A stretch of DNA of 51,206 nucleotides, from positions 1 through 51,206 of the IMG/VR virus record IMGVR_UViG_3300037153_000206; one strand, given 5' to 3'. A model generated the notes under the pieces. That model was given only the letters and a program-made list of their open reading frames with translations. It did not search any database and was not told the origin of the DNA. A program made the translations under genes and the position numbers. Shown here in pieces: positions 1 to 47,929 of this stretch. Source of the DNA: a virus. The stretch's first letter is position 1. Each line of letters opens with the position of its first letter.

Positions 1-4
1 CCTT

Positions 5-178
5 TCAGCCAGCGAAGCTGTGGGTCTGACGCATGAGCGAGCCGAACTCGCGCATCCGCTTGGCGTGCTCGATGGCCTCAAGCTCCTCGCTGTAGTCATT
101 GACTACACGGTCGGCGGATGCCGAGTAGACGAGGATGGCGTTGCCATCGCCTTCATTGGGATCGAAGATACGGTCCAT
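5..178 (-). CDS. Small hypothetical protein, 57 aa
   Basis: A complete short reading frame (58 codons with stop) on the reverse strand. An excellent AAGGAG ribosome site lies 5 nt before its ATG. The product begins MDRIFDPNEGDGNAILVYS and ends in a charged helix-like stretch (EELEAIEHAKRMREFGSLMRQ). I recognise no domain. It starts 9 nt after the stop of the HNH gene, so the two are probably co-transcribed leftward. The ribosome site and tight spacing make it likely to be real; the function is unknown. Confidence 0.6.
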   Translation of the reverse strand: MDRIFDPNEGDGNAILVYSASADRVVNDYSEELEAIEHAKRMREFGSLMRQTHSFAG

Positions 179-187
179 GGTTTCTCC

Positions 188-565
188 TTAGGAGCCGGAC
201 TTGACGGAAACAGTGATGCCACGCGCAACCAACCGACGCGCCAGCTTGGGAGCGAAGCTCCACAGCGACGTATCGCCGCGCCGGGAATTGCAGACCCGGC
301 AAGCCGGAATCAGATTCGAGCGCTTGTAGTCGCCACCCTGAGCGCCGGGAATGATCCGGTCGGCCTCAATAGCCTCGAAGGACAAGTCCTTCTGGCAGTA
401 CGAACAGGGGACGGTGACGCCATTGCCCCCGAACCCAGCGCTCGGGGAGAGCATGTGGCGCTTGTTGGAACGACGCTGGTGAGAGTTGGGACGAGTCCCA
501 CCGTTCCCAGCACGCGCCTTCCCAGTGGCCAAGCGACGTTCGAAGGACTTGGAAAAAGCGACCAT
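188..565 (-). CDS. HNH endonuclease
   Basis: A 125-residue protein with a C-terminal HNH nuclease fold. A zinc pair C54/C57 is followed by EADRIIPGAQGG, then SNLIPACRVCN with the second zinc pair C89/C92 and the final Asn/Arg-Gly-Asp motif. The usual first His is replaced by Arg (DR instead of DH), a variant I know from other phage HNH proteins. The N-terminal half is basic and probably contacts DNA. I chose the ATG at 565 because AAAGGGG lies 6 nt upstream; an in-frame ATG at 664 would add 33 residues but has a poor ribosome site and would run across operator-like repeats. Phage HNH proteins act in DNA nicking, packaging or homing; which applies here is not visible. Confidence 0.82.
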   Translation of the reverse strand: MVAFSKSFERRLATGKARAGNGGTRPNSHQRRSNKRHMLSPSAGFGGNGVTVPCSYCQKDLSFEAIEADRIIPGAQGGDYKRSNLIPACRVCNSRRGDTSLWSFAPKLARRLVARGITVSVKSGS

Positions 566-598
566 TTCCAGCCCCTTTCTGACTGCTAACGCAGTCAC

Positions 599-649
599 CA
601 TGTTGACATTGGAATGAAACGGCGGCAGAGCAATGTTGACATTCAACAT
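599..649. repeat. Two TGTTGACATT operator-like elements
   Basis: TGTTGACATT occurs at 601-610 and again at 634-643, 33 bp apart, just upstream of the chosen HNH start. The second copy sits inside a perfect 17-bp dyad, ATGTTGACATTCAACAT (633-649). They match the TGTTGACA motif found throughout the window. A protein-binding role is inference. Confidence 0.5.
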
Positions 650-713
650 GCTTGACTCTGCCATCCCGACCTACACGATCTCCCCGCATTCCTTCTTGCG
701 CGAGGGAGTCGTG

Positions 714-760
714 TGTCAAGAATAGCGACACAGTGACAGGGAAGACGAAGTGTCAACACT
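714..760 (-). promoter_or_regulatory. Leftward promoter between paired TTGACA sites
   Basis: Read on the reverse strand, the 12-bp dyad AGTGTTGACACT (760-749) is followed by a -10-like TATTCT (724-719) that runs directly into a second TTGACA (719-714). The two TTGACA cores are exactly 37 bp apart. The same 12-mer, spacing and order recur at 2969-3015 around TATAAT. No good -35 lies 17 bp upstream of the -10, so the TTGACA sites look like repressor operators rather than -35 boxes. The downstream gene is the HNH endonuclease. Confidence 0.5.
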
Positions 761-795
761 GTCACTGTGTCACAAAATGGCCTCTGGACTGTCAG

Positions 796-1158
796 CTATG
801 CTGCAATCCGGCCCTCGATGCGAGCGCGGCGGTTGGACGCCTCGACCATTGACAGCTTGCGAGCCGATCCGGCCTTCAGGCCGTGCTCGATGTGCCAGCG
901 CACCTGGCCGGGGGTGGCCGTTCCGGCGTCGGCCTTCATCGGCTTGCCGTTCCAGTTGAGGGCCATGGTGGCAGAGCCACTGCCCGCAGCCGGGTCGGCC
1001 ACGCGCTCCACCGGCTTTGCCGGGGCGGCAGGGGTGTTGTCAGCCGAGTCGATGGCACGGATGATCTCAGCGACTACCTCGCCCTGCTCCGCAGGGGAGG
1101 CGTCCGGACGGGCGGTGACGACGGCGTTGACGATGGCGTCAAGGGTGACAGCAGACAT
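796..1158 (-). CDS. Hypothetical protein, 120 aa
   Basis: I start this at the ATG at 1158 because AAAGGAG lies 8 nt upstream; the longer frame to 1293 lacks such a site. The product begins MSAVTLDAIVNAVVTARPDAS, has an Ala/Pro-rich linker near residues 45-65, and ends in a basic helical tail (VEASNRRARIEGRIAA). The middle contains GQVRWHIEHGLKAG. No family is recognised. It belongs to the leftward cluster of small genes, with about 65 nt to the next gene upstream. Confidence 0.6.
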   Translation of the reverse strand: MSAVTLDAIVNAVVTARPDASPAEQGEVVAEIIRAIDSADNTPAAPAKPVERVADPAAGSGSATMALNWNGKPMKADAGTATPGQVRWHIEHGLKAGSARKLSMVEASNRRARIEGRIAA

Positions 1159-1222
1159 GGCAGGTTCTCCTTTGGAGAGGTGATTTACGGTGAACTTCGG
1201 TTGGTCGCAGCGAAGCTGCGTG

Positions 1223-1444
1223 CTACGCGCTCTTGCGAGCGTGGTGGCGCGGCTTGCGCTCGCGCTTGAGGCGCTTGCGGAGGGCCTTGGCATCCTCGCG
1301 CTGCACCCTACGGGTCAGTTGGCCAACCGTCACTAGTGACAGGTCAACCTCACCTCCGGTGACACGGCAGACGCCGACGCCACGGATGAGCGATGCATCC
1401 TCCGGATGCAGGCGATTTTCGCCAGTGTTGCGTGAGTAGAGCAT
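1223..1444 (-). CDS. Small basic hypothetical protein, 73 aa
   Basis: The ATG at 1444 follows GGGGAGG with a spacing of 7 nt. The C-terminal third is very basic (KALRKRLKRERKPRHHARK), which suggests nucleic-acid contact. The N-terminal part has no recognised domain. Its leader and ribosome site are nearly identical to those of the gene at 1496-1672. Confidence 0.55.
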   Translation of the reverse strand: MLYSRNTGENRLHPEDASLIRGVGVCRVTGGEVDLSLVTVGQLTRRVQREDAKALRKRLKRERKPRHHARKSA

Positions 1445-1693
1445 GGTGGGGCCTCCCCGTAGGGGTCGTGTGTGAGCGTGCGGGCGATGGTGGCGCTAGT
1501 AGCGACTAGCAGCGCCACCCGTAGGGTCGGCGTCGTAGACGCTGCGCTCGTGGGCGAGCGTGGCCGCGCTGATGAGCGCGCCCGTCCCGATGGTGGGATC
1601 GAACTCAGACCAGTCCATCTCAGCTTCGCTGAGGTCGGTGTCGGCGGTGACGTAGGGGTCGAAATTGAACATGGTGGGGCCTCTCCGTAGGAG
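1443..1693 (-). repeat. Duplicated leader/ribosome-site element
   Basis: The start regions of two adjacent leftward genes share about 22 bp with one mismatch: CATGGTGGGGCCTCCCCGTA from 1443 and CATGGTGGGGCCTCTCCGTA from 1670. The conserved part covers the start codon and ribosome site, while the encoded proteins are unrelated. It looks like a re-used translation-initiation cassette. Confidence 0.6.
1496..1672 (-). CDS. Small acidic hypothetical protein, 58 aa
   Basis: The ATG at 1672 follows GGAGAGG at 7 nt. The first half is strikingly acidic (DPYVTADTDLSEAEMDWSEFD). The rest is a short helical segment (GALISAATLAHERSVYDAD). Small acidic phage proteins often bind a host DNA-binding protein or mimic DNA, but nothing here proves that. 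It appears to be the most upstream clear gene of the leftward set. Confidence 0.55.
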   Translation of the reverse strand: MFNFDPYVTADTDLSEAEMDWSEFDPTIGTGALISAATLAHERSVYDADPTGGAASRY

Positions 1694-2250
1694 TGTGTGG
1701 GCGAATGGTGGGGCGTAAAGGGTGGCGGCGCATCGAAGCAGCCGCGTTCCAGCCTTGCGCTCGTGTGTGTGAGCGCGTCCGGGCACCTTCAAACGTTTTA
1801 CGGCAGGGGTAATTCAAGCCCTATTGGGCATCCGGTTCACATACGGGCGGGCGCATCCTGCGCTCGCGGGCGGTACTGGGCGGGCGCTCGCCATGGATAC
1901 CCATGGGTCAACACGCTTGCCTGTCCACATCCCGCGAGCGCCGTTGCGTATCGCACTCGCAACGCTGCGCCGTTCGGCATGATCGGCGGACACTGCACGC
2001 GCCCTTGCGGGAGCGCTCGCAGACGGCAGGCCATCGCGGGCTGTGCGCAGTGCAAGGGATGTGGCATCCCATTCACGCACAGGCACCGTGATCGGCTCGT
2101 CTGCTCCACCCGCTCGCACCTTGCACTGTGCGTTGAGCGGGACCCGAGTGAGTATGTGTGCTGCCGCAGCCTGCTGTGCGTCTGGCCCTATGAGCGACCG
2201 GTCGGGACCGGCGGGGCGCTGCGTTCCTGCTGCCAATATGTTCGGCACAG
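1694..2250. other. Stretch with no convincing gene
   Basis: Long open frames exist on both strands, but neither has a ribosome site or a natural composition. One forward frame (1697-2302) contains a zinc-ribbon-like segment CKGCGIPFTHRHRDR near 2056-2100, which may be chance or a remnant. GCGCTCGC-type octamers recur several times. I see no clear promoter. Confidence 0.4.
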
Positions 2251-2251
2251 C

Positions 2252-2421
2252 CCTCAAACCCGCATTCCAGAGCCTTTCTCTAGTTTCTTGCTTGAGGCTT
2301 GAGAACATAAAATCCCTGCAAAATCCAATAACTAGATTCCGGAGTCAACGGTTCGGAATCGCCACCCTTGACACCGAACATTTAGCTTCCCTTTAGCAAG
2401 TGGTCCTCAAACCCGCATTCC
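2252..2421. repeat. 17-bp direct repeat CCTCAAACCCGCATTCC
   Basis: CCTCAAACCCGCATTCC occurs at 2252-2268 and 2405-2421. Its ACCCGCATTCC core recurs at 2873-2883. All copies have the same orientation and lie in the gene-free control region. The role is unknown; protein-binding sites or origin elements are possible. Confidence 0.6.
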
Positions 2422-2504
2422 TACGTCGAGATGCCGCCTCTATTTACAGGTTTCTTGTAGGGCTTGATCCCAGTAAGAAATCCGGTCTATCGTTTCTAAA
2501 GATC

Positions 2505-2584
2505 CGCAAATTGCGAGGTTTTCTGCCAGCACGATTCCCGCAAATTGCGACAATTTCCAGGGAGGCAAAAACCCGCAATTTGCG
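2505..2584. repeat. Three CGCAAATTGCG near-palindromes at 34-35 bp spacing
   Basis: CGCAAATTGCG lies at 2505-2515 and 2539-2549, and its reverse complement CGCAATTTGCG at 2574-2584. The starts are 34 and 35 bp apart, close to a whole number of helical turns, so all three sites present a similar DNA face. This is typical of operators or iterons bound by a dimeric protein. The binding protein is unknown. Confidence 0.7.
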
Positions 2585-2596
2585 ACCCTCGAAAAT

Positions 2597-2738
2597 GTCA
2601 CTATTACCGACACATTTCGCACGGTGAAAGTGTGTCGTGAATGTTGACTGTGAAGCTGAGGTGAAATGTGTCATCACACTTCACTATTTCGGTGAAAGGG
2701 GGCACCCTATTTCCTCACTATTAGTGACACATTCACCC
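2597..2738. repeat. GGTGAAATGTGTCA and TCACTATT element cluster
   Basis: Related 14-mers lie at 2609-2622 (reverse), 2623-2636, 2660-2673 and 2725-2738 (reverse), all variants of GGTGAAATGTGTCA. The first two meet head to head; the third forms a dyad with ACACTTCAC at 2676-2684. TCACTATT occurs at 2598, 2681 and 2715. The density in 140 bp of AT-richer DNA argues for a regulatory or origin array. Confidence 0.6.
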
Positions 2739-2754
2739 GAATGCGGATGTACGG

Positions 2755-2819
2755 CAGTCTGCCACGTCAGCCAGATATCGACATGTCAATACAGTCTGCC
2801 ACCCGGTGGAGATATCGAC
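2755..2819. repeat. Two 28-bp iterons with a 37-bp period
   Basis: CAGTCTGCCAC, 7 variable bases, then AGATATCGAC occurs at 2755-2782 and again at 2792-2819. The two conserved blocks are identical in both copies while the 7 bases between them differ, so each copy looks like a bipartite binding site. The 37-bp period equals the spacing of the paired TTGACA sites. A TGTCAA lies between the copies at 2784-2789. Confidence 0.7.
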
Positions 2820-2896
2820 GCCTGATGTCATCAGTGCTGGTCGCCCCCTGGGGAGGCCGTTTCCCCCTAAGGACCCGCATTCCCGAGTTGTGCCCT

Positions 2897-2926
2897 CGTC
2901 CCAACTGCCCGCGTGGGACGGTTGGG
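2897..2926. other. Overlapping alternative hairpins
   Basis: CGTCCCA (2897-2903) pairs with TGGGACG (2914-2920). CCCAAC (2900-2905) can instead pair with GTTGGG (2921-2926). The two helices exclude each other. No T-run follows, so a simple terminator is unlikely. Confidence 0.35.
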
Positions 2927-2968
2927 GCCTGCGGAGCCTCCCTGGCTCGTTCCCCTACGGGCTTCGCT

Positions 2969-3015
2969 AGTGTTGACACTATGGAAGATAGTATACTAGC
3001 TGTATAATGTTGACA
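2969..3015 (+). promoter_or_regulatory. Rightward promoter between paired TTGACA operators
   Basis: AGTGTTGACACT (2969-2980) is followed by the palindrome TAGTATACTA (2989-2998), a perfect TATAAT (3003-3008) and a second TTGACA (3010-3015). The TTGACA cores are 37 bp apart. The TATAAT is 24 bp from the first TTGACA, too far for a standard -35, and the second site would lie over the start of transcription. This fits a repressed early promoter serving the gene at 3068. Confidence 0.6.
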
Positions 3016-3067
3016 ACTCGCTGTGGCTCCGCTAGGCTGCGCGGCTCCGACGACAAGGAGGTTCCTC

Positions 3068-3301
3068 ATGGCTGAGGGAAAGAAGGCACCGCAGGTGGCG
3101 GGGCGTCAGCCTCGCGCGCTCGTGCCCGTAGTACGCAAGACTGGCGAGATCGACTGGGCCGGGGCCGGGAGACTGTGCCGACATCGGCTCGACTGCTTCG
3201 TGCCCGACCAGAAGCGCAACCAGGGCAACTACCGCACGATGGTGGTCACGCCTGAGATCATTGCCGCGTTCAGGCGCTGCGAGATCTGCGGGGGCGAGTG
3301 A
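3068..3301 (+). CDS. Hypothetical Cys-containing protein, 77 aa
   Basis: First rightward gene after the control region. The ATG at 3068 follows AAGGAGG by 6 nt, so I reject the GTG at 3023. The N-terminus is basic (MAEGKKAPQVAGRQPRALVP). Cysteines at CRHRLDC and CEIC near the C-terminus could bind a metal. No family is recognised. Its position directly behind the operator-flanked promoter makes it a candidate early or regulatory protein. Confidence 0.6.
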   Translation: MAEGKKAPQVAGRQPRALVPVVRKTGEIDWAGAGRLCRHRLDCFVPDQKRNQGNYRTMVVTPEIIAAFRRCEICGGE

Positions 3302-3336
3302 TGTAAATACTCTTGAAAGTAATCGCTGTCGTAGGC

Positions 3337-3353
3337 GTAACGCTGCGCGTTAC
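3337..3353. other. Perfect 7-bp inverted repeat
   Basis: GTAACGC and GCGTTAC are separated by TGC. It lies between the genes at 3068 and 3431, about 35 bp before the TGGTAAGCT promoter element. No T-run follows; an operator is as likely as an RNA hairpin. Confidence 0.35.
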
Positions 3354-3387
3354 TTAGCCTTACGCGGGAAGCGGGGGCGCGCGGGTG

Positions 3388-3396
3388 TGGTAAGCT
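3388..3396 (+). promoter_or_regulatory. Extended -10 element TGGTAAGCT
   Basis: Matches the recurrent TGnTAnnnT form seen before other transcription units in this window. It lies 34 nt before the GTG start of the secreted protein. No obvious -35. Confidence 0.4.
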
Positions 3397-3430
3397 CGCG
3401 CGCATTCTGCGTCTGGAGGGAAGGAGGAGC

Positions 3431-4216
3431 GTGCGTCTACGAATCCTGTTTGTGAGCGTCAGTGCCGGGATGGCGCTGACGTTCATGAGCGCGCTGCCAG
3501 CGGTGACCGGTGGCCAGCCGGTGTCAGATCACGGTCATCACGGCAAGCACCACAAGAAGAAGGTGACGATCTGCCACCGGCCTCCCGGCAATCCGGGCAA
3601 CGCGCACACGATCCGGGTGAGCAAGAAGGCGCTAAAGGCGCACCTGGCTCATGGTGACACTCTTGGCAAGTGTCCGAAGCCGCATCCGACGCCGACGCCC
3701 ACCCCCACGCCGAGTCCTACCCCGACTCCGACGCCGACAGCTACGCCGACACCGACTCCCACGGCAACGCCGACGCCAACAGTGACGCCAACTCCGACGC
3801 CGGTCGTGGGACCGCCAGGGCCTCCCGGTCCTCCTGGCCCACCCGGACCTCCCGGACCTGCTGGACCTCCGGGACCGCCTGGCCCTCCTGGCGCTGACGC
3901 TCCGGTGTCGTGCCCGAAGGGATCGGTTCGCGTGGCGCGGTGGCGCGTTGTTGTCAAGCGTGGTCACAGGGTGACTTCGTTCAAGGCGACGTTCAATGGC
4001 GAGAAGGCTCAGGTCCGCAAGACGCGCACGAAGGGCGGGCGGCGAATGTTCGTCATCCGTATTGACATGCGTGGGCTGACGAAGGGCATCTACAACGCCC
4101 GCATCCGCTACCGGCTCGCCGGAGAGCACCGCAAGTTCCCGCACAGCAAGGTCCATCTGTACCGGGCCTGCGGCGGCAAGGACTCGCTCAACGCAGAGAC
4201 GATCATCACGATCTAA
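3431..4216 (+). CDS. Secreted collagen-like surface protein
   Basis: A 261-residue modular secreted protein. A signal peptide covers about residues 1-28 (basic start, then a hydrophobic run). Residues 45-81 contain a CHRPPGNPGNAHTI module found in bacterial secreted proteins. Residues 86-124 are a Pro-Thr repeat and 127-154 a Gly-Pro-Pro collagen-like repeat. A C-terminal domain of about 90 residues (160-250) follows, with cysteines near each end. The GTG at 3431 is preceded by AAGGAGG. Secreted proteins of Solirubrobacterales often end in similar domains (from memory, not searched). A strong terminator follows. It is not an obvious virion gene; it may be cargo that alters the host surface. 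Confidence 0.75.
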   Translation: MRLRILFVSVSAGMALTFMSALPAVTGGQPVSDHGHHGKHHKKKVTICHRPPGNPGNAHTIRVSKKALKAHLAHGDTLGKCPKPHPTPTPTPTPSPTPTPTPTATPTPTPTATPTPTVTPTPTPVVGPPGPPGPPGPPGPPGPAGPPGPPGPPGADAPVSCPKGSVRVARWRVVVKRGHRVTSFKATFNGEKAQVRKTRTKGGRRMFVIRIDMRGLTKGIYNARIRYRLAGEHRKFPHSKVHLYRACGGKDSLNAETIITI

Positions 4217-4240
4217 TACTGCTGACATACCAACTCCGGG

Positions 4241-4274
4241 AAGGCCCTGCTTCGGCGGGGCTTTCTCGTTTCTG
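4241..4274 (+). terminator. Intrinsic terminator
   Basis: GGCCCTGC and GCGGGGCTT pair around a TTCG loop, followed by TTTCTCGTTT. It ends the secreted-protein transcript. Its stem closely resembles the one at 6886-6907. Confidence 0.85.
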
Positions 4275-4281
4275 GTAGGAT
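4273..4281 (+). promoter_or_regulatory. Extended -10 element TGGTAGGAT
   Basis: TG-G-TAGGAT directly behind the terminator. Transcription should start near 4288, which excludes the ATG at 4283 and supports the ATG at 4313. The identical 9-mer occurs at 16575-16583 and 48754-48762 on the reverse strand. Confidence 0.55.
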
Positions 4282-4312
4282 CATGCCCGACAACGACGAC
4301 GACGGAGGCTCC

Positions 4313-4576
4313 ATGCCCGCACGCAGAGTAGTACCGCACGAGATGGTGATCGGCTCAGACGGCTCGGCCTGGCAGGTGTTCCGCATCCGCCACGACGACG
4401 GTGCCTACACGGCGATCACCGTGCTCCAGAGCGCTCCGGCTGAGCGCGGCCCGAAGGCGACCGAGGAGCGCCGGGTCGGCTACTCGTCGGCGCTCAACGT
4501 CAGTACGGTTGTCACTGAGCCGTTGGCGTGGATCGAGGACTACGCGCGGCGGCACATGCCAGCCAAGGCTGCATAG
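4313..4576 (+). CDS. Hypothetical protein, 87 aa
   Basis: The start is the ATG at 4313 with GGAGG 4 nt upstream; the in-frame ATG at 4283 overlaps the promoter. The product has a beta-rich first half (EMVIGSDGSAWQVFRI, GAYTAITVLQ) and ends with an amphipathic segment (LAWIEDYARRHMP). No family is recognised. It is a single-gene unit with its own promoter and terminator, a layout common for phage accessory genes. Confidence 0.6.
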   Translation: MPARRVVPHEMVIGSDGSAWQVFRIRHDDGAYTAITVLQSAPAERGPKATEERRVGYSSALNVSTVVTEPLAWIEDYARRHMPAKAA

Positions 4577-4611
4577 CTTCCAGACAGACGACAAGGATGT
4601 TGTCGGATTGG

Positions 4612-4650
4612 ACCCCCGGTTTCACTCGCTGGCCGGGGGTCTTCTCTTTG
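4612..4650 (+). terminator. Intrinsic terminator
   Basis: ACCCCCGG and CCGGGGGT form an 8-bp stem around a 13-nt loop, followed by CTTCTCTTT. It closes the 4313-4576 unit. Confidence 0.8.
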
Positions 4651-4815
4651 TCAGGAAGATTACCGCCAGTTTTGGGTAGGCCCTGCGTTAGAGCCAAATG
4701 AGGGCCGCAGATGCGGCGGCGAGCTATACCCCGCGCTCGCCAGCCGGTGGGCAGGACGCCTGCTGCACACGGACGCCAGCAGCCAGCGGCAGGGACGCCG
4801 CGCCGGTTCCTCAAG

Positions 4816-5023
4816 GTGGAACACCCGGATGTTCCACTTCATGTAAGATGCGCGCCGCCGCTCCGGTTCTTGTCCGCTCACCTCGGATCGAGCCGGGGCG
4901 GTACCCACACATAGCACCCGCCGCTGTGACCCCTGCCTGGCGAGTGCGCTTAGCCTGCGGCCCCCGTTGGACTTCGCTCGTTGAGAGACAGGGTTGAAGG
5001 GACACCAGCGGGGGTCGTCCTTT
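4816..5023 (+). ncRNA. Candidate small RNA unit with dyad operator
   Basis: About 480 bp (4577-5056) holds no convincing gene but is organised. A perfect 8-bp inverted repeat (GTGGAACA/TGTTCCAC, 4816-4837) is followed by a -10-like TAAGAT (4844-4849). A strong stem, CCCCCGTTGG (4961-4970) with CCAGCGGGGG (5005-5014), then precedes TCGTCCTTTGTC. Together these could make an RNA of about 165 nt with its own terminator. This is inference from signals only; the stem could instead be a stand-alone terminator. Confidence 0.3.
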
Positions 5024-5056
5024 GTCTACAGTGCTGACTATACGAAGGTATAGGAC

Positions 5057-5197
5057 ATGGCCGAGATCGATCTGCTAGGGTCGCCCGCGCTGAGCCGGTG
5101 TAGGTGGCCGTGTCAGAGCGTTCCGGCGAACACGCGACACGACTCTTTACACCTGAGTTTCGGGCCGAGACGAAGGTGGCACCGGCTCAGCACCTAA
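5057..5197 (+). CDS. Possible small protein, 46 aa
   Basis: ATG at 5057 with GAAGG about 8 nt upstream; the frame stops at 5197. The product begins MAEIDLLGSPALSRCRWPCQ. Composition is not clearly protein-like in its second half. A short dyad, CTATAC/GTATAG (5038-5053), lies just before it. Low confidence: it may be chance. Confidence 0.25.
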   Translation: MAEIDLLGSPALSRCRWPCQSVPANTRHDSLHLSFGPRRRWHRLST

Positions 5198-5231
5198 ATC
5201 CCGGTAAAAGCAGCTAATTCGTGAACGGGAC

Positions 5232-5284
5232 TTGACGGGGGATCGAGCGCCCGGATAGGGTGCGCTCGGCGCTGTGGACAGCGC
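5232..5284 (+). promoter_or_regulatory. Promoter with downstream palindrome
   Basis: TTGACG (5232-5237), an 18-bp spacer, then TAGGGT (5256-5261). Just downstream, GCGCTGT and ACAGCGC (5269-5284) form a perfect dyad around GG, positioned like an operator over the transcription start. The next gene is the secreted protein at 5345. Confidence 0.5.
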
Positions 5285-5344
5285 TCCCGGAGGAAGGGAC
5301 GTAACGCCTCCGGACCCCATTCCACACCACAAGGAGGGACGCGC

Positions 5345-6859
5345 ATGAGGATGCGTGTTCGACTCGCGCTCTGCGTGAGTGCCCTGGCTGCCCTGGCCAC
5401 GCCGGTTGCGGCGCAGGCGGCTGTCGGGAACCCGTACAACGACGGCAATGACGCCGCCGTGGACCGGGCTGCGCCGGACAACTTCCGGCTCAACCTCTAC
5501 ACGCTGGAACCGGGATGCTTCCCGGCTCCGCACTTCGCCACCAGTGTGCATTTCGACATCGGTGACGACAACAGGTCGGCGCACGTGAGTGTCAGCAATG
5601 GCGCTCCCCTCAGTGTCGATCAGGTGCTGGTGCCAGGTCGCCACACCGGCTACGCCGTGATCAACACGTTCGACACCGGGACCGTTGACAACGATCCTGA
5701 CATCGATCCCGATCAGACGGGCACGAACCTCGAAGCGCCGCTCGTCGCTGGCAAGCATGACGAGATCGAGATCGATGACGTGTCGCGGTTCGCGAAGATC
5801 ATCGTCTGCGTGAGCGATCACGAGGACAGCGGTCAGAACGAGCCGTATGCACACTCCGACTCGCCTGCGGGCGCGAACGAGGTGTACGCGAAGAACCGGC
5901 CGGTCATTCAGCCGACTGTCGCCAGTCTTGGTCAGGGCGCGCTCAACGGCATCGCCAAGACCTACAAGATGGGCCTCGGCTACGAGATCGAGTCGTGGTA
6001 CGACGAGTACAACTTCGCGGACGTGCCGCCGTTCCAGCTTGACTGGACGGACCCGATGGCGTTCGGTGACAACCCTGATGGCACCAACACGCCGTCGCAT
6101 GTGTCGATTCCGCCCCGCATCGCGGGTCCGGTGTTCGATGCGATGTCAGACGGTCCCGGCGTCCTTCGCGTCAACGACATTGACGTGGCGGGCGAGGAGT
6201 TCGATGACCCGCACTACGAGGCGAGCGACTACGGCCAGACGACCGTGTTCCACGCGGCCGGTGATCCGTTCAGCGCCTGTCTCGGCGGACTCACGTGCTC
6301 GTCCGGTCCCGCGAGCCTGATCTCGTTCGGCACGCAGGGCGATTTGCCCGTCTCATGGTCGCTCAAGCCGTCGCTCGCCAGTGTTGACAGCCTGCGCAGC
6401 GTGGACTTCACGCAGGATGACTTCGAGGCGTGGCAGAACGGTTGGGAGGCGTACTACTGCGGGACCGGCGCGCGCCCGGATCTCCCGCTGACGCCGGGTA
6501 CCAACTCGCCGGACCCGCGCAACACCTGCCCGATCATCGTCAACCCGCCCGTCAGCCAGCCGCCGACGAGCACCGGGACGAACACCACCACTGTTGTCAC
6601 GAAGACGAACACCGTCGTCGTGGACAACTCGTGCTCCGGCAACAAGAACCACCGGGTCACGTTCAAGAAGAAGGCCAAGAAGGGCAAGCTGAGCTACCTC
6701 GGCAAGACCGTCAAGGCCAAGAAGTCCCACGGTCGTCTGCGGGCAACCGCGAGGCTGAAGGGTGTCAAGGGTGCTGCCGGTTCCTACGTCGCCGTCGTCA
6801 AGAAGACGAAGGTCAAGCGCTGGAGCCAGCAGACGCTGCTGTTCAAGCTCTGCGGCTAG
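5345..6859 (+). CDS. Large secreted protein, 504 aa
   Basis: Starts at ATG 5345 with AAGGAGG upstream. A signal peptide spans about residues 1-25 (MRMRVRLALCVSALAALATP, cleavage near AQA-AV). A large acidic ectodomain follows, with paired cysteines suited to an exported protein. A Thr/Asn-rich linker near residues 410-440 leads to a basic C-terminal module of about 65 residues (VTFKKKAKKGKLSYLGKTVK). That ending resembles surface modules of Solirubrobacter-like bacteria, from memory. The enzymatic role is not recognised. It has its own promoter and terminator and lies outside the virion genes, so it is probably host-acquired cargo. Confidence 0.75.
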   Translation: MRMRVRLALCVSALAALATPVAAQAAVGNPYNDGNDAAVDRAAPDNFRLNLYTLEPGCFPAPHFATSVHFDIGDDNRSAHVSVSNGAPLSVDQVLVPGRHTGYAVINTFDTGTVDNDPDIDPDQTGTNLEAPLVAGKHDEIEIDDVSRFAKIIVCVSDHEDSGQNEPYAHSDSPAGANEVYAKNRPVIQPTVASLGQGALNGIAKTYKMGLGYEIESWYDEYNFADVPPFQLDWTDPMAFGDNPDGTNTPSHVSIPPRIAGPVFDAMSDGPGVLRVNDIDVAGEEFDDPHYEASDYGQTTVFHAAGDPFSACLGGLTCSSGPASLISFGTQGDLPVSWSLKPSLASVDSLRSVDFTQDDFEAWQNGWEAYYCGTGARPDLPLTPGTNSPDPRNTCPIIVNPPVSQPPTSTGTNTTTVVTKTNTVVVDNSCSGNKNHRVTFKKKAKKGKLSYLGKTVKAKKSHGRLRATARLKGVKGAAGSYVAVVKKTKVKRWSQQTLLFKLCG

Positions 6860-6885
6860 ACGCGAGCCTAGTCACAGGAAGGGAG

Positions 6886-6913
6886 AGGCCCTGCTGCGGC
6901 GGGGCCTTTCCTT
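6886..6913 (+). terminator. Intrinsic terminator
   Basis: AGGCCCTGC and GCGGGGCCT form a 9-bp stem with a TGCG loop, followed by TTCCTTT. It closes the 5345-6859 transcript. Confidence 0.85.
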
Positions 6914-6951
6914 TGCCCCGACTCAAGCTCGACGGCGGTTCTGCCGATGCC

Positions 6952-6960
6952 TGGTAGAAT
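6952..6960 (+). promoter_or_regulatory. Extended -10 element TGGTAGAAT
   Basis: TG-G-TAGAAT behind the terminator. With a 6-nt gap, transcription would begin at 6967, exactly where the 10-bp leader stem starts. It probably drives the long small-gene operon beginning at 7071. Confidence 0.6.
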
Positions 6961-6966
6961 CGGGGC

Positions 6967-7041
6967 GCTGCCGGTGTTCCAGCGCGTTCTCCTCCGCTCG
7001 CGCCCGATCCAGACACGTCGGACCCCAGGAGCACCGGCAGC
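6967..7041 (+). promoter_or_regulatory. Long 5' leader hairpin
   Basis: GCTGCCGGTG (6967-6976) pairs perfectly with CACCGGCAGC (7032-7041). Inside, CTCCT can pair with AGGAG. The stem begins at the predicted first transcribed base and ends about 20 nt before the ribosome site of the 7071 gene. A 5' stem could protect the message from decay or regulate the operon; this is inference. Confidence 0.5.
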
Positions 7042-7070
7042 ACCGACAACACAGACGACAAGGAGTACCC

Positions 7071-7460
7071 ATGCGACCCATGGTGATCGCCGCAGTGGCT
7101 CTGCTGGCGGTCGGAATCGCGAATATTGACGTTCACCCGACCGAGACACGGACGGTTACCCGCACGGTGGTCAAGCGGCCACCCCCGAAGGTCGTGACGA
7201 AGATCAAGACGGTTTACAGCGAACGGCCAGTTGGTAGCGGCGTGATGACGCGCGCCGACTGCGAGTCGCTGAGCAAGACCGAGATGGACTTCCGCGCCAT
7301 CGTCGCGCGCTGGGGCTGGCCCGCTGGACAGAATGGCGAAGACAGCGGTAGCGACACACTGTACTACAAGCTGACCGATGCCCCCGATGAAGGCGAGTGC
7401 CAGATCGGCTTCTGGAACGGCAAGGTCGATGACGTGGACATCGAGGAGGACTGGCTGTGA
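7071..7460 (+). CDS. Membrane-anchored or exported small protein
   Basis: ATG at 7071 with AAGGAG 5 nt upstream. The first 17 residues (MRPMVIAAVALLAVGIA) form a signal or anchor segment. A Thr/Lys/Pro-rich stretch (TVTRTVVKRPPPKVVTKIKT) follows, and then an acidic globular domain containing FRAIVARWGWPAGQN and ending DVDIEEDWL. Two cysteines are present. No family is recognised. It is the first gene of a tightly coupled operon, and its stop overlaps the next start. Confidence 0.6.
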   Translation: MRPMVIAAVALLAVGIANIDVHPTETRTVTRTVVKRPPPKVVTKIKTVYSERPVGSGVMTRADCESLSKTEMDFRAIVARWGWPAGQNGEDSGSDTLYYKLTDAPDEGECQIGFWNGKVDDVDIEEDWL

Positions 7461-7771
7461 GCTTCAAGAAGGGTGATCTCATCCCGGTCGCGCTCGGCGG
7501 CTACATCCGCGTCATCAATCCTGACTGGCCTGAGGGTGACGAGCCGTTCTGCGAACGCGCCGATCCCAACACCTGGGCGCTCGTCTACCTGCGCCCGGAC
7601 GGCTGGTGGGAGGCAGGACGCGGCTGGGACACGCTGCACGATGCGCGCGAGGACGGCAAGACCCACGCCTGGCACGGAACCTCCTGGGGAATTGTCAACA
7701 TTCCTGAAGACATGCCTCAGATCCAGATGTCGGACGGCGAGGATCTGACGTGGGGAGAGAAGTACGAATGA
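7457..7771 (+). CDS. Hypothetical protein, 104 aa
   Basis: GTG start overlapping the previous stop (GTGA). The protein is Trp-rich (WWEAGRGWDTLHDA, HAWHGTSWGIVN) and acidic at its end. The opening FKKGDLIPVALGGYIRVI resembles a small beta-barrel. Its role is unknown. Overlapping stop/start codons couple it to both neighbours. Confidence 0.6.
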   Translation: MSFKKGDLIPVALGGYIRVINPDWPEGDEPFCERADPNTWALVYLRPDGWWEAGRGWDTLHDAREDGKTHAWHGTSWGIVNIPEDMPQIQMSDGEDLTWGEKYE

Positions 7772-8295
7772 GCGCAGCAATACTGCTGATTGACCCCAAG
7801 TACGGGCACAACATCGGTGCGACCGTGCGAGCGGCGGCAACTCTCGGCGCTCCTGAGGTGCGCTGGACCGGCTATCGCGGCGCGCGTGAGGTGCAGGCAC
7901 GGATTCCTCGTGAGGAGCGTCTGCGCGATTACCGTGCTCGTGTGGACTTCGGTGAGCTTGAGACTGTCGAAGGTGTTGTCAAGCCCATCGACATCTACGT
8001 CGAGCGCGGGTTCACGCCGGTTGCCGTCGAGGTGCTGCCCTCGTCGGAGTCACTGGTCGATTTCGTACATCCTCACAATGCTCTTTACATCTTTGGGCCG
8101 GAAGACGGCTCGTTGACGAAGGGCATCAAGGAGGTGTGCCACCGGTTCGTGTCGATTCCGAGCAAGGGATGCCTCAACCTGGGCGCGGCGGTCAATGTCG
8201 TGCTGTACGACCGGCTGGCGAAGGCGACAGCAAAGGAAACAATCGCGGGACTCCGCGAAACAATAGCGACACTACGAGAGGAAGGTGTGGGATGA
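7768..8295 (+). CDS. SPOUT (SpoU/TrmH-like) RNA methyltransferase
   Basis: A 175-residue protein with the three SpoU signatures: HNIGATVRAA near residues 14-23 (motif 1), LYIFGPEDGSL near 106-116 (motif 2, the SAM-knot glycine loop) and SIPSKGCLNLGAAVNVVLY near 129-147 (motif 3). These proteins transfer a methyl group from S-adenosylmethionine to ribose or bases in tRNA or rRNA. The length equals a bare catalytic domain without an RNA-binding extension. The ATG at 7768 overlaps the previous stop. Such an enzyme is unusual in phages and may modify host tRNA; the substrate cannot be read from the sequence. Confidence 0.85.
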   Translation: MSAAILLIDPKYGHNIGATVRAAATLGAPEVRWTGYRGAREVQARIPREERLRDYRARVDFGELETVEGVVKPIDIYVERGFTPVAVEVLPSSESLVDFVHPHNALYIFGPEDGSLTKGIKEVCHRFVSIPSKGCLNLGAAVNVVLYDRLAKATAKETIAGLRETIATLREEGVG

Positions 8296-13576: not shown

Positions 13577-13644
13577 GTGTTGTCAACACTGAAGCTCTCG
13601 GCTAGCCACCGGGGGCTTTAGTGCTTTCAGGGGCTTGTTATGAT
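13577..13644 (+). promoter_or_regulatory. Promoter TGTTATGAT with upstream operator-like site
   Basis: The dyad-like GTGTTGTCAACAC (13577-13589) contains TGTCAACA, the reverse form of the recurrent TGTTGACA. About 50 bp on, TG-T-TATGAT (13636-13644) is an extended -10. The GTG at 13652 lies 7 nt after it, at the expected first transcribed base. Confidence 0.55.
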
Positions 13645-21429: not shown

Positions 21430-22131
21430 ATGGGTTACAAGGTTCTCGTTGACGAGGTGACCGTTCACGTCACGATCAACAAGCTGCCCCAGCCGGACGG
21501 CTCGGTGATCTACCAGAACGGCCTCGGCCAGACGTACTACCGCGATGAGGTCGTCCCTGACGACAAGATCGCGGAGGACTGGAAGGAAGCGCTGGATTCG
21601 GGCGAAGGCCCGTTGGCCGAAGCGCTCAGCAAGAAGCTGGAGAAGTCCGATGACACCGGTGGTGACACCGGCAAGCGTCTCGGCGCTCCGTTCGCGGGCT
21701 ACGAAGACATGGAAGAGGATGACATCCTCGCTGCCATGAAGGCGTTGCCCTCGGCCGCGATCCAGCGGATCAAGGAGTTCGAGGAGCAGCAGGACGAACC
21801 GCGCGAGCGGATCACCAGCTACAACGTCGGCTACGGGGAGTCCGCAGTGGATCGTCAGGCAGGACTGGTGTCATCTGACGTTCAGGACTCCGATCCGGAC
21901 AAGGCGTCGGCCCGAATCAGCACCCGCGAGGTGCCGGAGGAAGGGCCGGTCGTGCCCGGTGAGGGGATCACTGGGACGGGTGACCCGCAGGTTCCCTACG
22001 GCTCGCGTGCCGACGAGGAGAAGGGCGACATCAAGGGCAGCGGCAGCCCGCGCCGCCGTGGCCGTCGCGACCGGCAGCCCAAGCCCCAGGAGGGCGGGGC
22101 CGCTCCGTCTCTGGACAAGGCCAACGAGTAA
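21430..22131 (+). CDS. Virion-associated hypothetical protein, 233 aa
   Basis: GAAGGGAGGTG precedes the ATG. An N-terminal beta domain of about 60 residues (YKVLVDEVTVHVTINKLPQP) is followed by an acidic helical middle and a long Gly/Pro/Arg-rich tail that looks disordered (SPRRRGRRDRQPKPQ). It stands between capsid and connector genes, so a minor head protein is likely. No family recognised. Confidence 0.6.
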   Translation: MGYKVLVDEVTVHVTINKLPQPDGSVIYQNGLGQTYYRDEVVPDDKIAEDWKEALDSGEGPLAEALSKKLEKSDDTGGDTGKRLGAPFAGYEDMEEDDILAAMKALPSAAIQRIKEFEEQQDEPRERITSYNVGYGESAVDRQAGLVSSDVQDSDPDKASARISTREVPEEGPVVPGEGITGTGDPQVPYGSRADEEKGDIKGSGSPRRRGRRDRQPKPQEGGAAPSLDKANE

Positions 22132-22158
22132 GCAGTACTGACGAAAGGAGGGATTCTC

Positions 22159-22665
22159 ATGGCGTTGACAGATCCGATTGCTCTCGCGGCGAGGGACGAG
22201 CTTCCCGAGACGTGGGACAAGCTGTTGGAGACGCCGACGTTCGGTGAGGAAGCCCTCCAACGTCGCCTCGATGTCCTGCTGTACCGAGCGTTCGGCACTG
22301 TCGAGATTGAGCAGGATGATCTTGATCCTGTTCTTGTCAGTTATCTTGGCAAGCGCCTGGCGCTCGACCTGATCATCCCCGGCATCGACTACTGGTCGAA
22401 GCAGGTGCTCTCGCTCACAGCAGGCGAGCGGGAGACGAAGGCATACAAGGATCGCGCGGAGGACTTGAAGGAACTCCGCAAGATGCTGCTGAACGACACA
22501 GCGCAGATGGCGGTGGAAGTTGGAGCAGTGCTACCTCAGATCCCACGCCCGCAAGGCAACTTCAGCCGCGTGCTGGAATCGGGATTCTCGACAGCACACG
22601 TGACATCTGACCCGCTGACGTTCCCGCCGCTGTATGGCCCGCCCGAGGAGACGACGACAGGATGA
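22159..22665 (+). CDS. Head-tail connector protein
   Basis: 168 residues, AAAGGAGG before the ATG. Helical, with LQRRLDVLLYRAFGTVEIEQ and LGKRLALDLIIPGIDYWSKQ, matching the size and position of adaptor proteins that bind below the portal. ATGA overlap couples it to the next gene. The assignment rests mainly on gene order. Confidence 0.55.
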   Translation: MALTDPIALAARDELPETWDKLLETPTFGEEALQRRLDVLLYRAFGTVEIEQDDLDPVLVSYLGKRLALDLIIPGIDYWSKQVLSLTAGERETKAYKDRAEDLKELRKMLLNDTAQMAVEVGAVLPQIPRPQGNFSRVLESGFSTAHVTSDPLTFPPLYGPPEETTTG

Positions 22666-23294
22666 GTCCGTACCTGTCTGAAGATCTCGTCGGCACCGAG
22701 GAACTGCTCGACTTGATCGAGTCGGCCATCATTCTGAACGTGAACGACGCTCTCAGCGTTGTCTACGAACGGAGGGTGCCGCTGGATCAGGCCAGGGCGG
22801 AACTCCGAGGTGTGCCGTATGAGCCACTGGAGTACGACGAGGTTCCTCCCGGCCACGTGTGGGCCGGGAACTTCCCGTCAACTGTGTTGGAGGAGGTTGG
22901 TCCGGAGGCATACCCGTACATCGCCATCACCCTTGACGATTACGTCCCTGACGCTGAGGATCTGATGCAGGACCACGTGAACGTGTACCGCAACGGTTTC
23001 ACTGTCCACAGTCTTGCTAAGGCCGATCCGGAAGGGGTCGCTGAGGGGCAGGGCATCGATCCTGCGTCGGACAAGGTGCTCCGGCGCGCGATTCGCATGG
23101 CCGAGGCGGTACATCTGGTGGCCTACCAAGATCCCAGCCTGAGTCGCCTCATCAGCGGCTCCTCGAATCCGACACGCGGTCAGCACTCCTTGCCTTGGAG
23201 ATATCAGAAAGACGGAGTAGGCCCGAACCTCTGGTTCCAGGCCGTCGGTACGACATACGCGATCAAGAGCTACACCACAGGCTGGAGTAGCTAG
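22662..23294 (+). CDS. Putative tail terminator or connector protein
   Basis: 210 residues. Helical start (LLDLIESAIILNVNDALSVV), then an alpha/beta core (AYPYIAITLDDYVPDAEDLM, DHVNVYRNGFTVHSLAKADP). The core resembles tail-completion proteins in layout. It overlaps the connector gene by ATGA and precedes the tail tube gene. No specific motif, so the name follows from order. Confidence 0.5.
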   Translation: MSPYLSEDLVGTEELLDLIESAIILNVNDALSVVYERRVPLDQARAELRGVPYEPLEYDEVPPGHVWAGNFPSTVLEEVGPEAYPYIAITLDDYVPDAEDLMQDHVNVYRNGFTVHSLAKADPEGVAEGQGIDPASDKVLRRAIRMAEAVHLVAYQDPSLSRLISGSSNPTRGQHSLPWRYQKDGVGPNLWFQAVGTTYAIKSYTTGWSS

Positions 23295-43214: not shown

Positions 43215-43947
43215 CATCGATATTGTCACTGAACATATCGACAACCAAGGCCGGACGGTGTTGCAGTACAGCCGTCAGCGGTTTCTCGGTACGTGGTGTG
43301 CGATTGCGTTGTTGGCGATCCTCACCGCGCTCGCGCTGTGGCTGGGCGTGCGTGGCTTCAACTACGACAACGCGCAGAACTACACACTGGCGACGCAGGC
43401 TGGCGATACGGCTGACACCGCCAATACCAAGAGCAATGACATCTATCTGTTCCTGCGGGGTCAGCGTGGCCTCCCCGGTGTGCCGGGAGCAGACGGCAAG
43501 GACGGTAGCCCCGGACAGCCTGGCTCGAATCCGGCGCTGCTGCCGCCAGGCCCAAAAGGCGCTACTGGCAATACCGGCCCTACTGGGCCTGCTGGTCCTG
43601 CGGGACCGGTCGGCCAGACTGGCACTGCGGGTCCGTCCGGCTCTGCGGGAGTCAAGGGTGATGTCGGTGCGACCGGAGCTACCGGTGCTCAAGGTGACGC
43701 CGGAGCGCCTGGTGCTGACTCGACTGTTCCTGGCCCCGAAGGTGCGAAGGGGGAGACGGGTGCGGAAGGGCCTGCTGGGATTCAAGGTCCAGAGGGTCCG
43801 GCTGGGCCACAAGGACCGCAAGGCCCGGAGGGACCGGCAGGACCGGCTTGTCCGGCTGGATCAACACTCACGCAGATCAACGTCCACGAGCGATTCCCGG
43901 AAGGCACAGCCGTGATTCTCGTGTGTCTGGTGAGTAGATCGCCATGA
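43192..43947 (+). CDS. Membrane-anchored collagen-like protein, 251 aa
   Basis: TTG start at 43192 with GAGAGG upstream, overlapping the previous gene; GTG at 43162 is the alternative. After a short cytoplasmic part comes a membrane helix (about 35-55; CAIALLAILTALALWLGV), then from about residue 90 a Gly-X-Y repeat of about 130 residues, and a C-terminal stub. Its motif YSRQRFLGTW is shared with the next gene (YSRKRFLWTW). A collagen-like rod held in the membrane is unusual for a phage. Confidence 0.6.
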   Translation: MTTDRTSDIDIVTEHIDNQGRTVLQYSRQRFLGTWCAIALLAILTALALWLGVRGFNYDNAQNYTLATQAGDTADTANTKSNDIYLFLRGQRGLPGVPGADGKDGSPGQPGSNPALLPPGPKGATGNTGPTGPAGPAGPVGQTGTAGPSGSAGVKGDVGATGATGAQGDAGAPGADSTVPGPEGAKGETGAEGPAGIQGPEGPAGPQGPQGPEGPAGPACPAGSTLTQINVHERFPEGTAVILVCLVSRSP

Positions 43948-44285
43948 GTGTTGATCCATTCGCAGTTGCGCTGACGAATGTGCTGGAGTATTCGCGCAAG
44001 CGTTTCTTGTGGACGTGGGTTGTCATCTGTCTTGGCGCTGCTTTCACCGGCTACACGTTGTTCTTTGCGGCGCAGCAGAGAAACATCAATACTGAGAACA
44101 CGAAGAAGCTGTCGATCTCGACTGGCGTACTGTGCGAAGCGATCCTTGCCACTCCAGACGAGGATGAGGAGGAGATCCTGGGCAAGCTCGCGCTGTCAAC
44201 TGCGTACACATCTAATGATCCGACCGGCGATATCACAAACCCGCTGTGTATCAATATCGTCAATAGGCTTTCCAATGGCGACTAA
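43944..44285 (+). CDS. Membrane protein, paralogous N-terminus, 113 aa
   Basis: ATGA overlap. VLEYSRKRFLWTWVVICLGA begins a single membrane helix (about 22-44). A soluble part with an acidic helix (ATPDEDEEEILGKLALSTAY) follows. The N-terminal half resembles that of the preceding protein. Candidate holin partner or membrane scaffold. Confidence 0.55.
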   Translation: MSVDPFAVALTNVLEYSRKRFLWTWVVICLGAAFTGYTLFFAAQQRNINTENTKKLSISTGVLCEAILATPDEDEEEILGKLALSTAYTSNDPTGDITNPLCINIVNRLSNGD

Positions 44286-44295
44286 AGTGTCAAAA

Positions 44296-44383
44296 GCCTG
44301 GGACGCCACCTCCCAGGCGTGCGCCCGTCAGAGCGCTCCGCAAGGGAATCGCCACCCTTACGTTGCCAGCGCTCCGGGCGCAC
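44296..44383 (+). ncRNA. Highly structured RNA element
   Basis: Two adjoining structures follow the membrane genes. GCCTGGGA/TCCCAGGC (8 bp, 44296-44318) is a clean hairpin. Directly after it GTGCGCCCG (44319-44327) pairs with CGGGCGCAC (44375-44383), and GAGCGCT (44331-44337) with AGCGCTC (44368-44374). That gives 16 bp broken only by a 3-nt bulge, and inside it AAGGG/CCCTT forms a third stem. No T-run follows. It could be a processed end, a dual terminator or a functional RNA. Confidence 0.5.
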
Positions 44384-44449
44384 GATATGCTTGCCGATCC
44401 GGTTGCTAGAGACACCGAGAAGGGATGAACCCACGATGCGTACACAATC

Positions 44450-44677
44450 ATGACGGTTCTAACGCCGTCAGCCGAAGCACGACAGGTCTACGGCATGATG
44501 GTCAGTCGTGCTGACAACAACGATGGCGAACTACATTTGACACTTGCCAACTCGATTGCGCTGAGTTGCACGCTTCGGCGCAAGGGCGAGGACGGCCAGG
44601 CGATGACGGCTGTGACCGAGCTATGCGAGGCCAACTGGATAGCTCCGGTGGCCGATGGCGGCTGGCGCGTAGGCTAG
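44450..44677 (+). CDS. Hypothetical protein, 75 aa
   Basis: ATG at 44450; GAAGGG lies about 20 nt upstream, so initiation is unclear. The sequence (VLTPSAEARQVYGMMVSRAD, then ALSCTLRRKGEDGQAMTAVT, WIAPVADGGWRVG) looks like a small winged-helix-like or alpha/beta domain. No confident family. Confidence 0.5.
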   Translation: MTVLTPSAEARQVYGMMVSRADNNDGELHLTLANSIALSCTLRRKGEDGQAMTAVTELCEANWIAPVADGGWRVG

Positions 44678-44699
44678 CTCGCTGGGATCATACTGGGCG

Positions 44700-44708
44700 T
44701 GATATCCT
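44700..44708 (+). promoter_or_regulatory. Extended -10 element TGATATCCT
   Basis: TG-A-TATCCT, with the GTG start of the next gene exactly 6 nt downstream, the same geometry as at 17780 and 49866. Confidence 0.5.
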
Positions 44709-44714
44709 GTCGGC

Positions 44715-45122
44715 GTGCCGCCGAACACGATCCACACGTTCCCGATCAACGACCTGATCGATCATCTCACTGGCGAAGGCGAGGAGTGCCCCTGCGGGCC
44801 GACTGTGGTGCCCGTTGAGCGCGTTGACGGCTCGATTGGCTACCACTACCAGCACCACTCGCTCGATGGCCGCGAGTTCCAAGAGTTCTTCGAGTGCCCG
44901 GTCTGCAAGATGAAGTCCTACCACCCGCAGGACATCGCCTTCGGCTACTGTGGCAACTGTCATGCGTTCACGAAGGGAGAGGTCAGCGTGGATCAAGATC
45001 CAGTCGTGATTGCTGACAACGTGTGGAATCATCTGCCATGGCCAGCGCAGGTGATCGCCGTCGTGGTTCTGGTTCTGGTGGCGCTCGGTCTGCTCTGGCT
45101 GCTGATCTTCGGGGAGATTTGA
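44715..45122 (+). CDS. Zinc-ribbon protein with C-terminal membrane anchor
   Basis: 135 residues. The GTG falls on the predicted transcription start, with no ribosome site, so the message is probably leaderless. Cysteine pairs CPCG, CPVC and CGNC suggest one or two zinc sites in the first 90 residues. A single membrane span (AQVIAVVVLVLVALGLLWLL) ends the protein, giving a tail-anchored topology. The combination is unfamiliar to me. The next gene overlaps the stop (TGATG). Confidence 0.6.
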   Translation: MPPNTIHTFPINDLIDHLTGEGEECPCGPTVVPVERVDGSIGYHYQHHSLDGREFQEFFECPVCKMKSYHPQDIAFGYCGNCHAFTKGEVSVDQDPVVIADNVWNHLPWPAQVIAVVVLVLVALGLLWLLIFGEI

Positions 45123-45388
45123 TGGTCTACACGCACTGGAGCGAGAAGCCGAAGCGCAAGCCGCCGCGTTACTACAAGTTTCGCTGGCTGTCATCATTGC
45201 TTCCAAACTGGGTACTGAATCGGCTGATCCGGTACTGGAAGCTCGACTACGACCCGGCTGACGGGTGGACGTTCTGGCTCGATGCCAGCTACGTGAAGTG
45301 GTGCCGCTGGGACAAGCGACGGAACTGGTTCAAGCGGCGGGTCGGCTGGCATGAGGCCGAAGGCGACCCACTGCACAGAGATCCGTGA
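45122..45388 (+). CDS. Basic Trp-rich hypothetical protein, 88 aa
   Basis: ATG in a TGATG overlap. Strongly basic and aromatic (SEKPKRKPPRYYKFRWLSSL, CRWDKRRNWFKRRVGW). It may bind membranes or nucleic acid. It overlaps the helicase start by 4 nt, which couples the two. Confidence 0.55.
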   Translation: MVYTHWSEKPKRKPPRYYKFRWLSSLLPNWVLNRLIRYWKLDYDPADGWTFWLDASYVKWCRWDKRRNWFKRRVGWHEAEGDPLHRDP

Positions 45389-47419: not shown

Positions 47420-47929
47420 TTAGTAGGGGAACTCGCGGAGTACGTTGTTCACGAGAGCGCGAGCTTTGTCGTAGTCGTCGGTCCCACGCAGTAGCCGCAC
47501 TGCGTTCGAGAGGTCGGCGCGCATGTCCTCACAGTCGGCGTACAGGCGCTGCGCTGCGGCGGTTCGCTTGTCGCAGTGCCGGTAGTGGTTGAACTTAGAC
47601 CCGGCGATTCTGGCAAGACGGTTGATGTTCTCGATGTGCTCGCGTTGTGCGACGTGAGCTTCGAGGGTCAACATGTCGCCACTGATCCTGTATCCCTCGT
47701 AGGAGAGGATGACGCCAGGCTCACGCCCGCGCAGTAGCGTCAGTCCGATGCCAAGCTCAGGATGCTCCCTGATCTTGCGAATCGTCCGGTCCACTCGCCA
47801 GGTTTCCCAGTCGAGGTAGTCAGCGATCTCCTGGCGCGTGATTCTCAGGCCCTCATGAGCACTGTTGTCAGCTAGGAACTGAACCAGTTCCTCGATCTCA
47901 TCGATCTGCCTGTCTGTCAGTTCACTCAT
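47420..47929 (-). CDS. DNA-binding protein with N-terminal HTH, 169 aa
   Basis: ATG at 47929 overlaps the end of the upstream gene. ITRQEIADYLDWETWRVDRT near residues 27-46 is a helix-turn-helix. The remainder is helical, with a His/Arg-rich middle (AGSKFNHYRHCDKRTAAAQR) and a C-terminal bundle. It is the second gene of a reverse-strand pair in an otherwise rightward region, which suggests regulation. Repressor or replication initiator are both possible. Confidence 0.6.
   Translation of the reverse strand: MSELTDRQIDEIEELVQFLADNSAHEGLRITRQEIADYLDWETWRVDRTIRKIREHPELGIGLTLLRGREPGVILSYEGYRISGDMLTLEAHVAQREHIENINRLARIAGSKFNHYRHCDKRTAAAQRLYADCEDMRADLSNAVRLLRGTDDYDKARALVNNVLREFPY

Follow-up and report, generated by a model that had tools for sequence, protein, structure and literature searches.

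The window, by which we mean the whole 51,206-bp IMG/VR record analyzed here (61% GC), has in its first 5 kb a control region with genes pointing outward on both sides. To the left lie a leftward gene to which no family could be assigned (796-1158) and, next in that direction, an HNH endonuclease gene (188-565) that was not found in the colinear relative G001. The HNH gene sits between the left dyad unit discussed below and a small gene at 5-178, and its copy in another relative, G002, is 63% identical. To the right, the first rightward gene (3068-3301) encodes a 77-aa protein of no known family, for which a search of viral contigs returned no homologue. The most AT-rich stretch contains three iterons, CGCAAATTGCG / CGCAATTTGCG, at 2503-2586 with spacings of 34 and 35, and G001 has three CGCTATTTGCG iterons at 89702, 89728, and 89763. 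This AT-rich iteron stretch is a probable replication origin, judging from its composition and repeats, and no sharp GC-skew switch marks it. In both genomes it is flanked by copies of a short dyad, AGTGT-N2-ACACT, which is the subject of this work.

Matches to G001 (IMGVR_UViG_3300041956_000050, 108,063 bp) run along the window, with window positions 1-5 kb corresponding to about 87.9-91.5 kb of G001. From this colinearity with a 108-kb record, the window probably makes up about half of a genome of ~110 kb; no end repeats were found in its 51,206 bp, and among its structural proteins are a tape-measure protein of 2369 aa and a major head protein. Seven further relatives (G002-G008) have the head protein in common at 67-83%. 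In the annotated phage collection, window positions 1-8000 found no similar DNA and the head protein found one weak match only, and a search of bacterial genomes with the major capsid protein turned up no prophage. We note that the final 1.26 kb of G001 (106801-108063) shows 100% protein identity to window 21430-22692 in the two genes checked, and that the copies of these genes at the beginning of the G001 record (111-1328) show 82-86% identity to the window; the terminal segment is possibly a chimeric assembly end. Two further observations concern short words elsewhere in these genomes. TGTNNACA is very rare in G004 and G005 (4 counts in 66 and 94 kb vs 60 in the 51-kb window), a scarcity that may reflect site avoidance or composition, and the palindrome GTGTTGACAACAC at window 13581-13588, in the gap 5' of gene 13640, is kept at the matching place in G001 (98978-98985).

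The window has exactly two copies of the 12-bp dyad AGTGTTGACACT, one at 749-760 on the minus strand and one at 2969-2980 on the plus strand (O1), and in both cases a same-strand TTGACA starts 37 bp downstream of the one within the dyad (756->719 and 2973->3010). Both the repeated dyad and the 37-bp core-to-core distance thus stand as the original prediction had described them, and the two units are the sole 37-bp TTGACA pairs in 51 kb. The chance expectation for the exact 12-mer is about 0.005-0.02 per window, and 17 matches with two or fewer mismatches are present against 3.3 expected. A repeated dyad with 5-bp arms and an N2 centre appears in 0.55% of control-region shuffles. TTGACA itself occurs 8 times in the control region vs 0.95 in shuffles, and a repeated TTGACA spacing arose in 0/2000 shuffles; given three TTGACA pairs within 60 bp (33, 37, and 37), equal spacing has about a 5% chance. 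Two tandem 37-bp units with CAGTCTGCCAC and AGATATCGAC in common also lie at 2755-2828, and the equality of their step with the dyad-TTGACA step is probably coincidental. The flanks of O1 extend the dyad to TAGTGT-TG-ACACTA (2968-2981). Variant dyads stand at 632-643 (AATGTTGACATT) and 599-610 (CATGTTGACATT), both on the plus strand, and the change in AATGTTGACATT is symmetric, affecting both arms, as an operator would predict. A literature search for the 12-mer found no paper.

The comparison with G001 identifies which part of this arrangement is conserved. We scanned the non-coding control regions of both genomes, with boundaries of our own choosing, for all 5-bp arms with spacers of 0-8, using mononucleotide shuffles as the null. 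AGTGT-N2-ACACT was the sole arm/spacer combination common to the two, with two copies in each; shuffles gave 0.04 shared combinations on average. The G001 copies, at 88018 (AGTGTAAACACT) and 91143 (AGTGTTGACACT), are the only two in its 108 kb, the single additional window copy (24971) falls inside a gene, and the seven other family records (about 520 kb) have none. The left G001 dyad extends to 8-bp arms, GACAGTGTAAACACTGTC, directly 5' of a leftward ATG, and the window sites that line up with it are the variants, with 599 as its aligned counterpart, just 5' of the next leftward gene. AGTGTTGACACA occurs at G001 90091, 5' of the first rightward gene. The window module AGTGTTGACACTA..GAAGA..TATA recurs at G001 91143, and the pattern AGTGTTGACACTA-N0..3-GAAGA was found in IMG/VR only in G001 and three unrelated contexts. 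A block at 689-736 is also conserved with G001 88113-88158 (83%); its pattern, TTCCTTCTTGCGCGAG, has 12 IMG/VR matches besides G001, all chance or unrelated. It is the dyad arms that are conserved; one G001 copy has AA/TT at its centre, so the central TG, and hence TTGACA, is not. The positions of the dyads relative to promoters also differ between the window and G001. Because the dyad is present in these two genomes only, its conservation rests on one comparison.

The AT-rich regions of G002, G003, and G006 contain other motifs and no AGTGT-N2-ACACT dyad. In G003 (101485-103445; L084 1485-3445) and G006 (L085 2224-3386) we observed 1-2 kb arrays of alternating AGCGAGCCA/GAGAGCACCA boxes about 18 bp apart, with a full period of 36-37 bp and unrelated spacers. 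Such a period does not divide by 3, which makes a coding repeat unlikely, and the arrays are absent from the window, G001, G002, G004, G005, G007, and G008. An AT-rich, control-like region of G002 (43400-45200; L075 3400-5200) holds many dispersed copies of AATCAGGT/ACCTGATT, which may be a different candidate operator or iteron.

On the right side, the second TTGACA (3010-3015) is most likely the -35 of a real promoter, TTGACA-N17-TAGGCT (3010-3038, plus strand, with TAGGCT at 3033-3038), downstream of which come AAGGAGG and the ATG at 3068. The elements of a sigma-70-group promoter (TTGACA, a 16-18 bp spacing, TANNNT, a Shine-Dalgarno sequence, and a start codon) are all found here. This is the sole exact TTGACA-N16..18-TANNNT match in the whole window; as chance alone would supply about 0.6 of them in 51 kb, the number of matches is no evidence in itself, and the argument is carried by position. 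The G001 counterpart, TTGCTG-N17-TAGCCT, precedes a similar leader and likewise lies 5' of the first rightward gene. The mapped Streptomyces consensus has TANNNT with a -35 of nTGACn at about 17 bp, which the 3010-3038 promoter fits, although the phage host is not known to be an actinobacterium (PMC8079986). The TATAAT at 3003-3008, originally taken as the -10, was rejected, as it stands 24 bp from the dyad TTGACA vs the 16-18 bp needed. A weaker dyad-like site, O2 (AATGTTGACAAC, core TGTTGACA; 3006-3017, plus strand), lies on the -35 of the rightward promoter, and would, we infer, be bound by the protein that binds O1. On the minus strand, a possible promoter, TTGTCA-N17-TACTAT (2988-3016), stands back to back with the rightward one and shares its -35 region; it is a weak candidate, matching the consensus at 9/12 positions, with 2 such promoters found vs 0.6 in shuffles. 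A second palindrome, TAGTATACTA, lies at 2989-2998, 19 bp from the centre of O1.

The left side is built differently. Here a 15-bp inverted repeat (726-774) takes in the exact dyad copy at 749-760, which extends from the end of its 5' arm into its loop. On the leftward transcript this repeat gives an RNA fold of -30.5 kcal/mol (z -6.5), 22 nt past the stop codon of 796-1158. Its G001 counterpart, at 88146-88217, has a 12-bp stem (z -5.2) 6 nt past the corresponding stop and contains no dyad. Between the two genomes one stem pair has changed in a compensatory manner (C-G to A-U), and the loops differ. A GC-rich stem after a stop codon, as in an intrinsic terminator, is thus present; the U-tract that follows is weak (GCUAUUCUU in the window, CUAAUGCU in G001). 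We therefore describe this element as terminator- or attenuator-like rather than as a promoter, and termination is what its form would predict. A search of window 1-5400 against Rfam returned nothing. The segment TATTCTTGACA (714-724, minus strand), originally read as the -10 and second TTGACA, has no TANNNT 16-18 bp downstream and reads CTGACAC in G001. No -35/-10 pair at 16-18 bp was found on the minus strand of 560-800, and TATTCT (724-719) was rejected as a -10 because it is 26 bp from the dyad TTGACA where 16-18 bp is needed.

These data change the original picture of two equivalent, outward-facing promoters. The units do point outward, but the left one lies inside a series of leftward genes (796-1158 and 188-565), and only the right has a consensus promoter, formed with its second TTGACA; the left is a conserved inverted repeat after a stop. 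The supposedly identical arrangement of -10 and second TTGACA does not hold either: on the left, TATTCT and the second TTGACA have 1 bp in common, and on the right, 1 bp separates TATAAT from the second TTGACA, which puts the two units in different registers. What survives of the proposed shared dimeric repressor is the dyad itself, which behaves like a conserved protein-binding site near the starts of outward genes; the twin promoters it was to control do not.

None of the four proteins originally named as binders fits this role well. For the products of 3068, 47420, and 47922, G001 offers no homologue despite carrying the dyads, and the 17434 product, which gives a weak HTH match and is kept in G001 at 81%, is also present in relatives without the dyad. 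Window 47420-48692 comprises two leftward genes of no clear family, inserted between replication genes that run rightward; neither G001 nor the other relatives have them. No HTH gene, and no cognate repressor gene next to the dyads, was found within window 1-5 kb, where the flanking proteins match no regulator family, and HTH_3 was not detected in the window. G001 does encode an HTH_3 protein (64302-64565), 24 kb from its dyads and in the genome half missing from the window. We rejected it as an autoregulated repressor, given that the nearby TGTTGACA words lie inside coding frames. No tyrosine-family integrase (PF00589) was found in the window, itself half a genome, or in four related records, so this search gives no indication of a lysogeny repressor.

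The dyad is a known kind of element with a new sequence. The repressor gp33 of mycobacteriophage BPs (cluster G) has operators with a 12-bp palindrome, CGACATATGTCG, at several loci, including the divergent PR and Prep (PMC4557955). Like these operators, the sites described here are 12-bp palindromes at several non-coding loci near early promoters, with paired half sites at variable spacing and one site at a divergent promoter region (PMC4557955). Unlike them, AGTGT-N2-ACACT has a 2-bp centre and another sequence, its copies flank an origin-like region, and neither a repressor gene beside the sites nor a tyrosine integrase was found. The stoperators of cluster A mycobacteriophages (L5) are asymmetric 13-mers bound by a monomer (PMC9283540). 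There, as here, several related sites are present and some overlap a TTGACA -35 (PMC9283540), whereas stoperators are asymmetric, occur in many copies in short intergenic gaps, and are oriented with transcription, and the present dyad is symmetric. The sites also resemble lambda OR/OL as dimer-type dyads around back-to-back promoters, but differ from them in having no tripartite arrays and no CI/Cro gene beside them. The L5-type stoperator 13-mer is GGTGG(A/C)TGTCAAG. It has no exact copy in the window or G001; the sole hit below two mismatches in either is one single-mismatch site in G001, and the window has three 2-mismatch matches; with no exact 13-mer and a symmetric site, the stoperator reading was rejected.

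The palindromic site is repeated in non-coding DNA at early promoters, as in phage-repressor operators. From this, and from the arms and spacing kept on both sides of the origin-like region in two genomes, we conclude, with slightly better than even confidence, that AGTGT-N2-ACACT is an operator-type site of a dimeric DNA-binding protein, phage- or host-made, around the probable origin. The dyads might instead be sites of a replication or segregation protein of the origin, their flanking positions reflecting origin architecture. That they bracket the iteron-bearing, most AT-rich stretch in both genomes, and that TGACAC/TGTCAC motifs recur in the origin region, is consistent with this; we nevertheless judge it unlikely, as the dyads adjoin gene starts (G001 88018 at an ATG, window 2969-3017 at a promoter), lie 0.4-1.8 kb from the iterons, and surround an origin that is itself deduced and lacks a sharp skew switch. 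It is distinctly less likely that the left copy simply belongs to an intrinsic terminator or attenuator hairpin, with an unrelated right copy and a partly coincidental 12-mer identity. The strength and conservation of the 15-bp and 12-bp stems, which directly follow stops, their compensatory change, and the dyad-free G001 hairpin favor this explanation, but the low expectation for the exact 12-mer, the variants at 599 and 632 outside the hairpin, and the separate left dyad kept by G001 all speak against it.

Twin promoters repressed by one dimer, each with the dyad, a -10, and a second TTGACA at a fixed 37 bp, would account for the exact spacing in both units, which no shuffle repeated. We consider this very improbable: the supposed -10s stand 24-26 bp from the dyad TTGACA, the left unit forms a hairpin downstream of a stop codon, and the 37-bp step and second TTGACA are missing from every G001 dyad, in which TTGACA is not the conserved element. 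The 37-bp distance as a functional design is accordingly not supported. An artefact of composition, in which TGTTGACA is simply common and nearby repeats arise by chance, is extremely unlikely. The word does have 18 copies in the window and is frequent in coding sequence too, yet 5/18 lie in the control region, at about 8x the density of the remainder, in G001 the extended form AGTGT-N2-ACACT occurs in control regions only, and the unbiased two-genome scan disfavors a chance origin.

If the dyads are operators, their placement suggests how they would act. O1 would lie about 70 bp upstream of the early-promoter start while O2 would cover the promoter -35, and O1 would also fall on the start point of the possible leftward promoter, at about +1 to +12. 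With O2 on the -35 and O1 on the leftward start, a protein bound here, presumably as a repressor, would control transcription to the right and perhaps also to the left. On the left, the variants at 599 and 632 lie just upstream of the next leftward gene, with the exact copy at 749 in the terminator-like inverted repeat. A more elaborate proposal, which we regard as rather improbable, is that a regulator of a new family, specific to a sub-lineage of uncultured ~110-kb phages, binds dyads on either side of the origin and ties the start of replication to outward early transcription via an operator-promoter-hairpin unit.

Our results highlight that a spacing equal in two cassettes, judged by eye to be design, can fail once a relative is examined. 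They also show where the control and origin region probably lies in an uncultured ~110-kb phage family without a close relative in the annotated phage collection; there, the 12-bp candidate operator, together with its promoter, provides a testable handle for finding the regulator.
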